35,018 nucleotides of DNA from Haloplasmatales bacterium 4B (GTDB lineage: Bacteria > Bacillota_I > Bacilli_A > Haloplasmatales > Haloplasmataceae). A model generated the notes under the pieces. The model worked only from the letters and a program-made list of their open reading frames with translations, was not told the DNA's origin and made no database searches. The position numbers were made by a program, and so were the translations under genes. The stretch lies in assembly GCA_003586005.1 (NCBI GenBank), contig NSKI01000024.1:1-35018 (forward strand), written 5' to 3'. Shown here in pieces: positions 19,448 to 24,446 of this stretch (within the stretch, counting starts at the first letter, position 1; the number at the start of each line of letters is the position of its first letter).

Positions 19448-20848
19448 ATGAAGCTATTTAAAGCTAAAAAGGGAATCCATATCCCTGGGAAAAAAGATGG
19501 TACTGCAAAACTATCTTCAATTGAGTTTCTATCACCTGAATATGTCTACATTCCCTTATCAGTTAAAGGGACTGATTTTGATGTTTTAGTAAAACCTGGT
19601 GATATAGTAAAACTAGGGCAAAAAATTGCTCAAAGATCAAAAGGAAAAGGATTACCCCTTGTAAAACATGCTTCTATTAGTGGTGAAGTAGTTAATATAA
19701 AAGAAAGAAAAATGCATAGTTCAGGTCTTCCTTATGTGTGTATACAAATTAAAAATGATTTTAAAGATACACTTGTAGAGGTTACTCCAGTTTCTAATTT
19801 AGACAAGGTTGAAAACAGCCAATTGTTAGAAATTATTAAAGAAGCTGGTATTGTCGGTTTAGGTGGAGCAGGCTTTCCAACATTTTTGAAATATGGAAAT
19901 GTAAAGGATATTGATACTGTCATCTTAAATGGGGCTGAATGTGAACCTTATTTAACTTCAGATTATCGAATAATGTTAGAGCAAACTGACCGTGTCATTG
20001 ATGGGTTAGTTATTTTAATGAAATTAGCAAATGCCAAAAAAGGTATTATAGCTATTAAAAAAGGCAAGAAAGAAGTTTATAAGCAACTTCTTGATGGTGC
20101 ATCTAAATTTAATAATATTTCTGTAGTTGAAATTCCAGATGAATTCCCTGCTGGATGGGAAAGACAAGTTGTTTATCGTACATTAAAACGCTCATATGAA
20201 AACTTTCCATTTGAATGTGGCGTGATTTTAAACAATGTAAGTACTTCTGTAGCAGTATCAAAAGCAGTAAGAGACGGATTACCACTTGTTGAGCGTTTTG
20301 TTACTGTTTCTGGGGAAGGAATTATTCGTCCGCAGAATTACCGCGTTAGAATAGGAACTTTGTCAACAGACCTTATCAAACTGTCTGAAGGTTTAGCAGA
20401 TGATATGGGTGAGTTGCGTATTGTTACAGGTGGTCCTATGATGGGTACTTCACTAAAAACAGAAGAATTTGTTGTTACTAGTGAATTATCAGGAATTTTG
20501 GCTTTACCGGGTGAACATAAATATGAAACACCTCATAATAAACCTGTTGGAGATGTAATATTAGATGTTCTGCATTTTTCAGAACATGATGATCGCTTCT
20601 TTATGCGCGATGAACAACCATGCGTACGTTGTGGAAACTGTGTAAAATATTGTCCTGCTGGTATCCAACCAACATTAATTAGAAGTGCCTCTATAGCAAA
20701 AGATGAAATAATGTTAGATAAATTAGATGTGTCAAAATGTATTTCATGTGGAACATGTTCTTATGTTTGCCCATCTCATATCCAAGTGAGTGAAGCAGTT
20801 AAAAAGGGTAAAGCATATCACGCAGCTAAAAATAGAAATAAAAAGTAA
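19448..20848 (+). CDS. rnfC: Rnf complex subunit C (NADH-binding, Fe-S)
   Basis: This 466-residue peripheral subunit of the ion-translocating ferredoxin:NAD+ oxidoreductase carries the NADH/FMN site, with the glycine-rich GIVGLGGAGFPTFLKY as in complex I NuoF, then a SLBB-type region. It ends with two [4Fe-4S] motifs, C392-x2-C395-x2-C398-x3-C402 and C431-x2-C434-x2-C437-x3-C441. All eight cysteines are in place. The N-terminus (GIHIPGKK) is a degenerate form of the usual GGIHPP start. It opens the operon rnfC-D-G-E-A-(small gene)-B; AAAAGGAG before the ATG is a good ribosome binding site. Confidence 0.96.
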   Translation: MKLFKAKKGIHIPGKKDGTAKLSSIEFLSPEYVYIPLSVKGTDFDVLVKPGDIVKLGQKIAQRSKGKGLPLVKHASISGEVVNIKERKMHSSGLPYVCIQIKNDFKDTLVEVTPVSNLDKVENSQLLEIIKEAGIVGLGGAGFPTFLKYGNVKDIDTVILNGAECEPYLTSDYRIMLEQTDRVIDGLVILMKLANAKKGIIAIKKGKKEVYKQLLDGASKFNNISVVEIPDEFPAGWERQVVYRTLKRSYENFPFECGVILNNVSTSVAVSKAVRDGLPLVERFVTVSGEGIIRPQNYRVRIGTLSTDLIKLSEGLADDMGELRIVTGGPMMGTSLKTEEFVVTSELSGILALPGEHKYETPHNKPVGDVILDVLHFSEHDDRFFMRDEQPCVRCGNCVKYCPAGIQPTLIRSASIAKDEIMLDKLDVSKCISCGTCSYVCPSHIQVSEAVKKGKAYHAAKNRNKK

Positions 20849-20871
20849 TTTACTAGGGAAGGAGAATTATC

Positions 20872-22053
20872 ATGACTAAAATTCAAGTTGGTTCACATCC
20901 ACATATTCATAGTGGAAATTCCACTCATAAATATATGTTGGATTTACCGATTACAACTTACTCAATGGCTATTGTTGCAATTTTAATTCAATTTCTATTT
21001 GTGACTATATATCTCGGAGCTTCATTCTCTGAGGGAATCATCGTAGCGATACAAGCCGCTTTAGTTATTTTTACTGGTGTATTTTCTTGTATTGCAGCCG
21101 AATCTATTTGGAATAGATATGTTAATAAAGAATATAATGATTTTTCTGGGTGGTTTAGAAGCATGGCTACAACATACCCTTCTATTACAGGTATGTTATA
21201 TGCTCTTTCACTACCTATAGGAACACCTTTATATATAGTAATTATTGGTGGTTTCGTAGCGATAATTATTGGTAAATCAATTTTTGGTGGGGTAGGAAAT
21301 AACATCTTCAACCCTGCTTTAGTAGGGCGAGCATTTATCACAATTGCATACGCTACCGCTTTAGGGAAAGCAGTAGACTATACTGGCTTGATTCAAACAA
21401 CAGATGCGATTGCATCTGCATCACCTCTTGTAAAAGCAGCTCAAGAAGGAGCATTGCTTTCATATGAATCATTCAAAAATATATATGGTTCTGTTTGGAA
21501 ATTATTTTTTGGATTTTATCCAAGTGCTTTAGGTGAAAGTTTATCATTCTGGATTATTCTATCATTTATTTATTTATCAATTAAGAAAACGATAGATTGG
21601 TTTGTTCCAGTTATATATATTGGTTTAGTTTTTGTAATGGTATGGGTAGTTGCTTTAGTAAACAACCTAGGAACTCCATTAAGTGAACCTTTTACCTTAC
21701 AAACATTAGGACTTTATTTACCAATATTTCATATTTTAACTGGTGGATTATTGTTTGGTGCTGTCTTTATGGCTACTGAGCCTGTGACTTCTCCAATTAC
21801 ACGTCGTGGACGAGCTTTATTTGCTGTATATTTGGCGGTAATTACTTTTGCAATTAGGATATTAGGTAATCTACCAGAAGGTGTGCTTTATTCAATCTTG
21901 TTTATGAACTTATTTGTGCCAATAATGGATCGCTTTTATATGGGTCAAACTAAAGGCATAAAAAGGAAAGAAATTATTTTATGGATTTTCACACTTTTAG
22001 TTGCTGCAGGTGTAACAGCTTACGCTGCAACTAGTTTGGGAGGTGTGTCATAA
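20872..22053 (+). CDS. rnfD: Rnf complex subunit D (membrane flavoprotein)
   Basis: This 393-residue subunit has about nine membrane segments and the signatures GNNIFNPALVGRAF and ATEPVTSPIT of the RnfD/NqrB family. RnfD carries a covalently bound FMN, normally on a Thr in an S-x-A-T-P-L type motif. Here the matching position is S184 in DAIASASPL, a conservative Thr-to-Ser change that could still allow attachment. The His-rich cytoplasmic N-terminus (HPHIHSG) is a common RnfD start. The stop codon shares one base with the rnfG start (TAATG). Confidence 0.95.
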   Translation: MTKIQVGSHPHIHSGNSTHKYMLDLPITTYSMAIVAILIQFLFVTIYLGASFSEGIIVAIQAALVIFTGVFSCIAAESIWNRYVNKEYNDFSGWFRSMATTYPSITGMLYALSLPIGTPLYIVIIGGFVAIIIGKSIFGGVGNNIFNPALVGRAFITIAYATALGKAVDYTGLIQTTDAIASASPLVKAAQEGALLSYESFKNIYGSVWKLFFGFYPSALGESLSFWIILSFIYLSIKKTIDWFVPVIYIGLVFVMVWVVALVNNLGTPLSEPFTLQTLGLYLPIFHILTGGLLFGAVFMATEPVTSPITRRGRALFAVYLAVITFAIRILGNLPEGVLYSILFMNLFVPIMDRFYMGQTKGIKRKEIILWIFTLLVAAGVTAYAATSLGGVS

Positions 22054-22598
22054 TGAATAAATATATACATTTAACATTAGTATTGCTTATCGTATCAGGC
22101 TTAAGTGGGTTGATTTTAGGCTTTACTAACGAGTTTACAAAAGATGCTATAAGACAAGTTAAATTAGATAATATTAATAAGAATATGAATAAGTGGTTCC
22201 CATCAGTACCACTTGAAAATAAAGAAGAGAATGCTACAGCAGATTATCCTGATTTATCTGACAAAAATGTCGTAAATATTTATGAAGCAAAGGATATTTC
22301 AGACACTTTGGAAGGTTATATATTAGAAGTTAAAGCACCAGATAGCTATGGTGGTGGCATGGTACTATTAGTTGGAATTGATACTGAAGGTAAAGTTGTT
22401 GGATTTACTTATTTATCTTTCAACGAATCTGGACCAGGTGCAAACGTAAGAGAGAATAATTCATTTGTCAATAGAATTGTTGGTAAAGATTCTGTAAATG
22501 ATGTCGATACAGTAACTGGAGCAACATATACATCTACAGCCACATTGAATGGTGTGCAAATTGCTTTAGATTACTTCGATAAAAATTTAAAAGAGTAG
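22053..22598 (+). CDS. rnfG: Rnf complex subunit G (periplasm-facing flavoprotein)
   Basis: This 181-residue protein has one N-terminal membrane anchor (about 5-27) and an extracytoplasmic FMN-binding domain. The covalent FMN motif is TVTGATYTSTA, with T158 as the likely attachment residue; YGGGMVLLVGIDTEGKVVGF is the conserved core of the domain. ApbE-type flavin transferase is needed to load the FMN, and no apbE lies in this window. Length and motif are normal for the family. Confidence 0.95.
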   Translation: MNKYIHLTLVLLIVSGLSGLILGFTNEFTKDAIRQVKLDNINKNMNKWFPSVPLENKEENATADYPDLSDKNVVNIYEAKDISDTLEGYILEVKAPDSYGGGMVLLVGIDTEGKVVGFTYLSFNESGPGANVRENNSFVNRIVGKDSVNDVDTVTGATYTSTATLNGVQIALDYFDKNLKE

Positions 22599-22611
22599 AG
22601 GTGAAGTACAG

Positions 22612-23259
22612 ATGACTAAAAAACAAAATTTTCTAAAAGGTATTTTTTCTGAAAATCCAGTATTTGTTCTTATATTAGGGATGTGTCCTGTACTTGGTGT
22701 TACTTCTACTTTATTTGGTGCACTAGGTATGGGAGTCGCATTTACCTTAGTTTTGGTTTTATCAAACATTATCGTATCTATGATAAAGAATTTTATTCCA
22801 AACGAAGTAAGAATCCCTTCTTTTATAGTTGTAATAGCTACATTAGTTACAATTGTGCAGCTTACAATGCAAGCTTATTTACCAGATTTATACAATCAAT
22901 TAGGAATATTTATTCCCCTAATTGTTGTTAACTGTGTCATTTTAGGTCGTGCAGAAGCTTTTGCAAGCAAAAATAATATACTTGATTCAACTATAGATGG
23001 ATTAGGTATGGGAATAGGTTATACGATAGCAATCGCTATGCTAGCTTTCATTAGAGAATTATTTGGAGCTGGTACATTGACCTTATTCATGTATGGTGAT
23101 GTTAATATTAAATTTAATTTAATACCTAATAATGCCTTTGAGCCTATCTCAATTCTTATATTGGCACCAGGAGCATTTATCACATTAGGTTTATTACTTG
23201 GTGTTATTAACGCCATAAAATTTAATATTGAAAATAAAAAAAGTGTTGGGAGGAGTTAG
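22612..23259 (+). CDS. rnfE: Rnf complex subunit E (membrane)
   Basis: This 215-residue, six-TM protein is homologous to NqrD. LGMCPVLGVTSTLFGALGMG and IVVNCVILGRAEAFASKNN each supply one of the cysteines that, with RnfA, hold the intramembrane Fe-S centre. GAGTLTLFMYG precedes the last helices. Ribosome binding site GAGGTGA. Standard length. Confidence 0.95.
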   Translation: MTKKQNFLKGIFSENPVFVLILGMCPVLGVTSTLFGALGMGVAFTLVLVLSNIIVSMIKNFIPNEVRIPSFIVVIATLVTIVQLTMQAYLPDLYNQLGIFIPLIVVNCVILGRAEAFASKNNILDSTIDGLGMGIGYTIAIAMLAFIRELFGAGTLTLFMYGDVNIKFNLIPNNAFEPISILILAPGAFITLGLLLGVINAIKFNIENKKSVGRS

Positions 23260-23262
23260 AAG

Positions 23263-23850
23263 ATGAGTACAAGTGATTTAATTAAATTAGGTATAGAAGC
23301 TATTTTGATCCAAAACGTAATCCTTACACAATTTTTAGGAATTTGCCCTTTTATGGGTGTTTCTAAAAAAAGCCAATCTGCTATTGGAATGGGGTTGGCT
23401 GTAATATTCGTTATGGTTATATCATCAGGGGTAACATTCGTAATTAATGATTTAATCCTACAACCTAATAAAATTACATATTTACAAACAATAGTTTTTA
23501 TTTTAGTAATTTCAGGTGTAGTTCAATTTGTGGAAATGTTTATTAAAAAAACAGCACCTTTTATTTATAAAACATTAGGCATATATTTACCCCTAATTAC
23601 TACAAACTGTGCGATTTTGGGGATTGCATTGATTAACGTTCAACCTGAAAAAGAGTTTGGGTATGCTGAAATGTTTGTTTATACTATTGGTATATCTATT
23701 GGATTTACATTGGTTATTTATATATTTTCAACTATCCGTGAAAGATTAGAAAACGCAAATGTTCCTAAAGCTTTTAAAGGCACACCAATTGCATTAATCA
23801 CAGCAGGAATTATGTCTATTATATTCTTAGGATTTGCAGGTTTAGTATAA
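23263..23850 (+). CDS. rnfA: Rnf complex subunit A (membrane)
   Basis: This 195-residue, six-TM homologue of NqrE is the inverted-topology partner of RnfE. FLGICPFMGVSKKSQSAIGMG and LITTNCAILGIAL provide its two conserved cysteines for the shared iron centre. It starts three bases after rnfE with GGGAGGAG as ribosome binding site. Only one base separates its stop from the next small gene. Confidence 0.95.
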   Translation: MSTSDLIKLGIEAILIQNVILTQFLGICPFMGVSKKSQSAIGMGLAVIFVMVISSGVTFVINDLILQPNKITYLQTIVFILVISGVVQFVEMFIKKTAPFIYKTLGIYLPLITTNCAILGIALINVQPEKEFGYAEMFVYTIGISIGFTLVIYIFSTIRERLENANVPKAFKGTPIALITAGIMSIIFLGFAGLV

Positions 23851-23851
23851 A

Positions 23852-24100
23852 ATGAATTTTACATCTATATTAACAATGACTTTACTTGTTTTTGGTTTAA
23901 TTTTCTTTTATGCAATTGGTATATATCTTAATAAAAAAACACCATTACCTAGTGGGTGTGATTTGCCTTCGCTAAAGTGTGAACATTGTACGTCAACTTC
24001 ATGCTCTTATTCAGAGCCTAATCGTGTTGAACAAATTAAAACAGAAATTAAGAATAGTTTAAAAAATAAAAACAGTGGGGAAGGTGCTATAAATGAGTGA
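23852..24100 (+). CDS. Small Cys-rich membrane protein, NqrM-like
   Basis: This 82-residue protein has one N-terminal membrane helix (6-26), then NKKTPLPSG and four cysteines, C36-x6-C43-x2-C46-x4-C51, then a short charged helix. The layout (one helix, short linker, SGC, tight cysteine cluster) is that of NqrM (DUF539), which supplies iron for the Cys4 centre between NqrD and NqrE. RnfE and RnfA are the homologues of those subunits, and this gene lies directly after rnfA. I infer a maturation role for the Rnf intramembrane Fe-S centre. The ribosome binding site is weak, so translation may depend on coupling with rnfA. The last eight bases overlap rnfB. That it is a real gene is well supported; the function is inference. 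Confidence 0.75.
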   Translation: MNFTSILTMTLLVFGLIFFYAIGIYLNKKTPLPSGCDLPSLKCEHCTSTSCSYSEPNRVEQIKTEIKNSLKNKNSGEGAINE

Positions 24101-24446
24101 TTCAATGATTCAAATATTAGAAGTAGCAGGTATCGTCGGTGCTATTGGTGCAGTGATTGGTTTAATATTAGCAATCGCAAGTAAAATCTTTCATGTTGAG
24201 GTTGACCCACGTTATGATTTAATCGTTGAGAATTTACCAGGGTTTAACTGTGGAGCTTGTGGCTATGCAGGTTGTTCTGGAATGGCTGAAGGAATACTTG
24301 CTGGAGAAGCTAATGTAAGAAACTGCGCACCAGGAAATGAATTAACTTATGCTAAAGTATCAGCTATCTTAAAAGGTGAAGATCCTGATGCGGTCACTTC
24401 AGTTGAAGAGAAAGCAAAACCGGTTGCAAAACCCAAAAAAGCTTAA
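24093..24446 (+). CDS. rnfB: Rnf complex subunit B, short form without ferredoxin domain
   Basis: This 117-residue protein has the RnfB N-terminal membrane helix (about 9-30) and the RnfB-specific [4Fe-4S] domain, with C53, C56, C61 and C78 in GFNCGACGYAGCSG...NCAPG. RnfB proteins normally continue with one or more ferredoxin-type two-cluster domains that accept electrons from soluble ferredoxin. Here the protein ends after a short Pro/Lys/Ala tail, and a strong terminator follows eight bases later, so this is not a window or frameshift effect that I can detect. Electron entry must use this single cluster or a separate protein. The ribosome binding site is GGGAAGGTG; the start overlaps the previous gene by eight bases (ATGAGTGA). 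Confidence 0.93.
   Translation: MSDSMIQILEVAGIVGAIGAVIGLILAIASKIFHVEVDPRYDLIVENLPGFNCGACGYAGCSGMAEGILAGEANVRNCAPGNELTYAKVSAILKGEDPDAVTSVEEKAKPVAKPKKA

Follow-up and report, generated by a model that had tools for sequence, protein, structure and literature searches.

What is the role of a small, cysteine-bearing membrane protein whose gene lies between rnfA and rnfB? The question arises from the window analyzed here, a stretch of 35,018 nucleotides of contig NSKI01000024.1 from Haloplasmatales bacterium 4B, in which the gene order rnfC-D-G-E-A-[small gene]-B occupies positions 19448-24446, with the subunits identified by Pfam and NCBIfam (Table 1). The small gene is tightly packed behind rnfA, with 1 nt between the last position of rnfA (23850) and its own ATG; rnfB starts at 24093 and overlaps the small ORF by 8 nt. 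The protein encoded by 23852-24100 (+) is MNFTSILTMTLLVFGLIFFYAIGIYLNKKTPLPSGCDLPSLKCEHCTSTSCSYSEPNRVEQIKTEIKNSLKNKNSGEGAINE, and its cysteines form the motif S34-G35-C36-x6-C43-x2-C46-x4-C51, which follows TPLP. A single-chain AlphaFold2 model contains one confident helix at residues 3-29, within a block of pLDDT 90-98 over residues 1-30, and a loosely structured tail of low confidence. The basic residues (KK) right behind the helix would, by the positive-inside rule, place the cysteines on the cytoplasmic side. A preliminary description of this DNA had reported a one-helix protein with an SGC-x6-C-x2-C-x4-C cluster between rnfA and rnfB, and the ORF, the motif and the predicted helix all agree with that description.

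Table 1. Positions of the rnf genes, the small gene and its parts in the window.
Feature	Positions	Strand	Description	Evidence
rnfC	19448..20848	+		TIGR01945 1.5e-108
rnfD	20872..22053	+		PF03116 1.1e-75
rnfG	22053..22598	+	FMN-binding	PF04205, TIGR01947
rnfE	22612..23259	+	215 aa, cluster cysteines C25 and C108	TIGR01948 6.5e-74
rnfA	23263..23850	+	195 aa, cluster cysteines C28 and C116	TIGR01943 3.6e-75
Small Rnf-companion gene	23852..24100	+	82 aa, one transmembrane helix and Cys cluster, ATG start	
Predicted transmembrane helix codons	23858..23938	+	Residues 3-29, predicted N-out/C-in	AlphaFold2; positive-inside rule
Cys cluster codons	23957..24004	+	C36 to C51, C-x6-C-x2-C-x4-C	Motif and conservation
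rnfB, short form	24093..24446	+	117 aa, helix and small FeS domain only	PF04060 1.8e-12

The small gene represents a real family, far beyond chance, because homologues with 52-70% identity are found at the same place within the taxonomic family of the window and carriers number 86 of the 295 genomes surveyed. The closest homologues come from MAGs of Haloplasma and Haloplasmataceae, and a narrower-alignment search returned six loci, three of them in Haloplasma/Haloplasmataceae MAGs, two in Bacilli MAGs of the same family and one in Erysipelotrichaceae. A first scan of genome contigs with the window protein alone gave no match. C43, C46 and C51 are kept in 103, 103 and 102 of 103 unique sequences, respectively, so that three of the four cysteines noticed in the window are nearly invariant among orthologues (at least 102 of 103), and C36 is kept in 79. 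P33 is present in 102 of these sequences, N27 in 90 and T30 in 88. Together these counts suggest a family core of a helix, LN[KR][KR]TPxP and CxxCx4C, to which the fourth cysteine appears to be an optional addition. No relative of the small protein was found in the PDB or in PHROGs, and no NCBIfam model matched the window protein even at E 10; scattered NCBIfam matches of single members within the family were judged meaningless. No Pfam or NCBIfam model describes the family. A literature search, with subscription journals mostly outside its coverage, returned no description of such a gene. We conclude that this is an undescribed protein family with an NqrM-type build and its own cysteine pattern, partner complex and distribution.

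The partner complex is evident from the co-occurrence of the small gene with rnfA. When 100 related genomes were searched with a single-sequence query, 52 were matched and every convincing carrier also had rnfA. A 22-member profile (carriers defined by E 3e-5 or better) was then applied to the 295 Bacilli genomes of a phylum draw, and here the small gene was found in 86 genomes, rnfA in 96 and both in 85 (Fisher p 1.6e-60, phylogeny ignored), with joint presence and joint absence alternating inside at least eight families. Furthermore, 81 of 92 copies lie 0-47 nt downstream of rnfA on the same strand, and a small gene adjacent to rnfA occurs in 80 genomes. The small gene is nearly obligate in Rnf-bearing Bacilli, and the earlier proposal of a dedicated Rnf companion, recurring behind rnfA in the operons of relatives, is borne out. 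The sole carrier without any detectable Rnf-Nqr protein, G242, has its copy at L088 3151-3387, which is either an orphan or the result of an assembly gap. Four genomes of the first survey that appeared to carry the gene without rnfA (G019, G032, G081, G082) were rejected as spurious, with weak matches (E 0.007-0.08) in mostly long or stop-containing frames. Conversely, five Rnf genomes that seemed to lack the gene (G014, G028, G047, G067, G097) have divergent or relocated copies. In G067, which has a longer RnfA (231 aa), the motif was not found fused to the RnfA C-terminus.

Copies outside the operon, elsewhere in the genome, are present in G009, G011, G021, G031, G044, G062, G067, G093 and G097. 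Several of them adjoin a gene pair, dCMP deaminase-like and then Lon/PDZ-protease-like, that also stands behind rnfB in the window. These relocated copies apparently act in trans. Additionally, in G009 and G040 one copy of the small gene stands against two short-RnfB Rnf operons. The small Cys protein is encoded a second time at L119 3318-3518 and L105 2708-2851, near CsoR-like and copper/heavy-metal genes (identified by eye); the L105 copy is a degenerate paralogue that lacks the third cysteine.

Eleven of the rnfA-bearing genomes among the 295 gave no profile match. In four of them (G016, G038, G065, G261) the gap between rnfA and rnfB encodes a peptide of 35-57 aa with one helix and at least three clustered cysteines, for example MIGFVIVLLLFILTFILYRVNKTKEKCKGCDLCQL. 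In six others (G048, G072, G088, G095, G263, G276), the only rnfA is Nqr-like and scores low. At the five Nqr-like loci that were read, the RnfA/RnfE-like genes adjoin an NqrF-like gene and a large FMN-binding gene, and Fer2, FAD and NAD domains were confirmed by Pfam in the NqrF-like protein of G048; G276 was assigned to this type from its score and genus. All four [2Fe-2S] cluster cysteines are kept in the four Nqr-like complexes that were aligned, and no small gene was found in the Bacilli with an Nqr-like complex only. These operons (L035, L038, L039, L040, L100) occur alone or beside Rnf and without NqrM. In them a protein of 600-675 aa (FMN_bind confirmed for L035) precedes the RnfE/RnfA-like genes, which are followed by an NqrF-like protein of 358-362 aa (Fer2/FAD/NAD confirmed for L035).

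A second feature of the carriers concerns RnfB. In structurally characterized complexes, a C-terminal RnfB domain with 2-7 [4Fe-4S] clusters accepts electrons from ferredoxin (PMC12174285). The RnfB of Bacilli departs from these proteins because the multi-cluster C-terminal domain is missing. In the window, RnfB gave no Pfam match to a Fer4 (ferredoxin) domain, and the RnfB proteins of the 78 unique rnfA-gene-rnfB arrangements, 89-192 aa in length, are all devoid of the CxxCxxCx3C ferredoxin motif. G078 (locus L042), the eleventh of the rnfA-bearing genomes without a profile match, is the only one from Bacilli in which a ferredoxin-type RnfB (267 aa, Fer4 domains) was seen; it has no credible copy of the small gene anywhere in the genome, and its rnf operon is possibly an acquired one of clostridial type. 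Similarly, RnfB of 192-429 aa is encoded directly behind rnfA in the Clostridia examined (Acetoanaerobium, Monoglobus, Vescimonas), in Fusobacterium and in E. coli, with no small gene between the two, and searches through the complete records of Acetoanaerobium, Fusobacterium and E. coli yielded no credible copy. One E. coli profile match (E 0.003) was rejected as spurious, since it covered 28 positions of a frame with a stop. The uniformly short RnfB of the carriers, and the lack of a copy in G078 and in the ferredoxin-type Rnf examined, establish a rule in these data: the small gene accompanies Rnf with a ferredoxin-less RnfB. The ferredoxin-accepting domain is missing from nearly all Bacilli Rnf examined. 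Close relatives of the same family as the window have an RnfB of 183-192 aa with a tandem second CTTCGxPGC FeS-like domain, still without ferredoxin domains (L002 942-1505, L003 1741-2295, L007 1715-2266, L008 899-1477).

The preliminary description had further likened the protein to NqrM and proposed that it builds the Fe-S centre between RnfA and RnfE. As far as can be judged from the sequences, the architectural resemblance to NqrM is genuine, and common ancestry is unproven. Like NqrM, the small protein has a single N-terminal helix, basic residues and a cysteine cluster predicted by the positive-inside rule to be cytoplasmic, in the order helix, KK/RK-[TS], Cys, then CxxC or CxC, Cys. Both are of similar length (66-82 aa), and both are operon-borne accessories of a complex of the RnfA/RnfE-NqrE/NqrD type. 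However, NqrM has GSCGG followed by CxC-x3-C or CxxC, whereas the small protein has C-x6-C-x2-C-x4-C, with a first cysteine that is not invariant. The small gene lies within rnf between A and B and nqrM behind nqrF/apbE; unlike nqrM, it accompanies Rnf and is absent where an Nqr-like complex is the only one. In Prevotella and Parabacteroides, no NqrM-like ORF was found adjoining nqrF. A profile search with PF04400 (NqrM, DUF539) matched neither the window protein nor any of the 22 members; none of the 100 relatives rose above the cut-off, and there was no match at the small-gene loci. For a more sensitive comparison, 13 real NqrM sequences, obtained from plasmid-collection records, were aligned. 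Using hhalign, the helices were matched with each other, as were the Cys regions, over 43-45 columns, and P was 1.9e-4 (alignment A2) and 5e-4 (deeper set), scores that shuffled NqrM columns also reach, in 7/200 cases with helix and tail shuffled and in 13/200 with the tail only (3.5-6.5%). GSCGG is present in all fetched NqrM and absent from the small protein. The one-helix, cysteine-cluster architecture stands. Kinship with NqrM is not supported by PF04400, and the profile-profile values, which some shuffled columns attain, allow it without demonstrating it. The proposed role at the RnfA/RnfE centre is weakened as well, with cluster-bearing complexes lacking the gene and the gene following the ferredoxin-less RnfB. 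The small protein is not a general builder of RnfA/RnfE-type [2Fe-2S] centres, because the Nqr-like-only complexes of Bacilli keep the four cysteines without the gene and the ferredoxin-type Rnf examined also lack it.

Several known kinds of protein could account for such a gene. A true NqrM orthologue that moved into the rnf operon would explain the shared feature order and the hhalign values of about 2e-4 and 5e-4, but the missing PF04400 matches and GSCGG and the scores of the shuffled columns mostly refute membership and make this origin improbable. It is more doubtful still that the protein is one of the FeoB-associated Cys-rich membrane proteins (PF12669), a general iron-uptake accessory in the rnf operon by chance. 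These proteins are likewise short, with one helix and a Cys-rich tail, and PF12669 is the best Pfam match of the window protein (E 0.029), with 7 of the 22 members also matching weakly. However, the window protein reaches 15.1 bits against a curated cut-off of 27, its gene neighbors rnfA with no adjacency or fusion to feoB, and clear FeoB-associated proteins exist at other loci in G006, G033 and G044 besides the small gene. If the protein neither delivered a cofactor nor transferred electrons, it might sense redox state or metals or stabilize Rnf, which would fit the small size, the membrane anchor, the cysteines and the degenerate paralogue near genes judged by eye to be CsoR-like and copper genes. 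The lack of any DNA-binding or catalytic domain and the strict placement among structural subunit genes make such a role quite unlikely. The Azotobacter Rnf likewise has an extra small associated subunit, RnfH, which is set apart by its description, not by sequence: it lacks a cofactor, and other complexes contain no subunit homologous to it (PMC12174285).

Two readings carry more weight. The one we favor, at a probability somewhat short of even, is that the small protein acts in trans as a factor for Fe or Fe-S assembly that is specific to Rnf; more broadly, the protein probably helps, in a dedicated role, to build or supply the Rnf iron-sulfur relay. It would be a membrane-anchored accessory specific for the Bacilli-type Rnf with its ferredoxin-less RnfB, working as NqrM does for Na+-NQR. 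Through the single helix, the CxxCx4C site would be kept on the cytoplasmic face of the membrane, next to RnfA/RnfE/RnfB, and the three (often four) cysteines may bind Fe or a labile Fe-S unit. This could be passed either to the intramembrane [2Fe-2S] of RnfA/RnfE or to the single [4Fe-4S] of the short RnfB; we infer that one of these clusters is served. The NqrM-like feature order, the co-occurrence with rnfA and the position behind it argue for an assembly factor, as do the 35-57 aa gap remnants that still have the helix and three cysteines. The invariance of only three cysteines suits an open or labile site, and relocation, together with single copies beside two Rnf operons in G009 and G040, fits an assembly factor better than a fixed subunit. 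An rnf operon can hold maturation genes, since apbE lies directly behind rnfB in some operons, and nqr operons carry apbE-nqrM. Pairwise distances of the small protein track RnfE best, with partial correlations of 0.31-0.44 against 0.06-0.16 for RnfA/RnfB in the full set and 0.23 against 0.09-0.13 in the dereplicated set, which is a hint only, since RnfE is the longest marker and the result may reflect length. Counting against assembly, Clostridia, Fusobacterium and E. coli have the same RnfA/RnfE cysteines without the gene, as do the Nqr-like-only Bacilli with all four, and the carrier G242 has the gene without Rnf. C36 is not invariant, although it sits at the position of an NqrM cysteine that is reportedly essential. 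Finally, the perfect linkage to ferredoxin-less RnfB points to RnfB rather than to the RnfA/RnfE centre.

The same linkage, and the fact that the RnfA/RnfE centre is made elsewhere without the gene, keep a somewhat less probable but plausible alternative in play, namely an extra structural subunit in the module for electron input, making up for the shortening of RnfB. Soluble ferredoxin would then reduce the small FeS domain that RnfB retains by way of this subunit, which would offer either a Cys-ligated centre anchored in the membrane or a place to dock. The short RnfB in 78/78 arrangements, free of CxxCxxCx3C, and the absence of the gene wherever RnfB is long, both in G078 and in Clostridia, Fusobacterium and E. 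coli, are consistent with this role, as is the CxxCx4C spacing, which is the spacing of the first three ligands in the RnfB FeS domain. The N-terminal part of RnfB (PF04060), encoded next door, likewise has a helix and then a C-x2-C-x4-C triad; the small protein differs in lacking the fourth ligand and the FeS domain and in being encoded by a separate gene besides RnfB. However, the three invariant cysteines, also the number kept in the remnants, would be a small set for a stable electron-transfer cluster. The number of copies does not track the number of Rnf operons, either, and the gene may sit far from rnf. The correlation with short RnfB, moreover, rests on few independent switches, because nearly the whole class Bacilli has the short form. 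The assembly and input readings converge if the cluster that the assembly factor loads is the one [4Fe-4S] of the short RnfB. It is also possible, if tentative, that the Rnf of Bacilli is distinct in requiring a seventh component, this membrane-anchored three-to-four-cysteine protein, to carry or insert the redox centre that is missing. An ion-pumping redox complex would then have a module of a new kind, serving electron input or assembly. With a gene of this size, housed in the operon and almost always present where Bacilli have Rnf, one deletion can test the question.

Other rearrangements of Rnf were observed among the relatives. In three with small genomes, RnfD carries the FMN-binding domain as a C-terminal fusion (L030 4078-5499, L036 1951-3384, L032 1798-3243), and rnfG is represented by a helix peptide of ~30-43 aa between rnfD and rnfE, a rearranged, minimal Rnf. 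In G006 (3.2 Mb main contig; L202 1333-2729, 2752-3925), rnfC and rnfD are each split into two frames, which reflects either sequencing error or real disruption.
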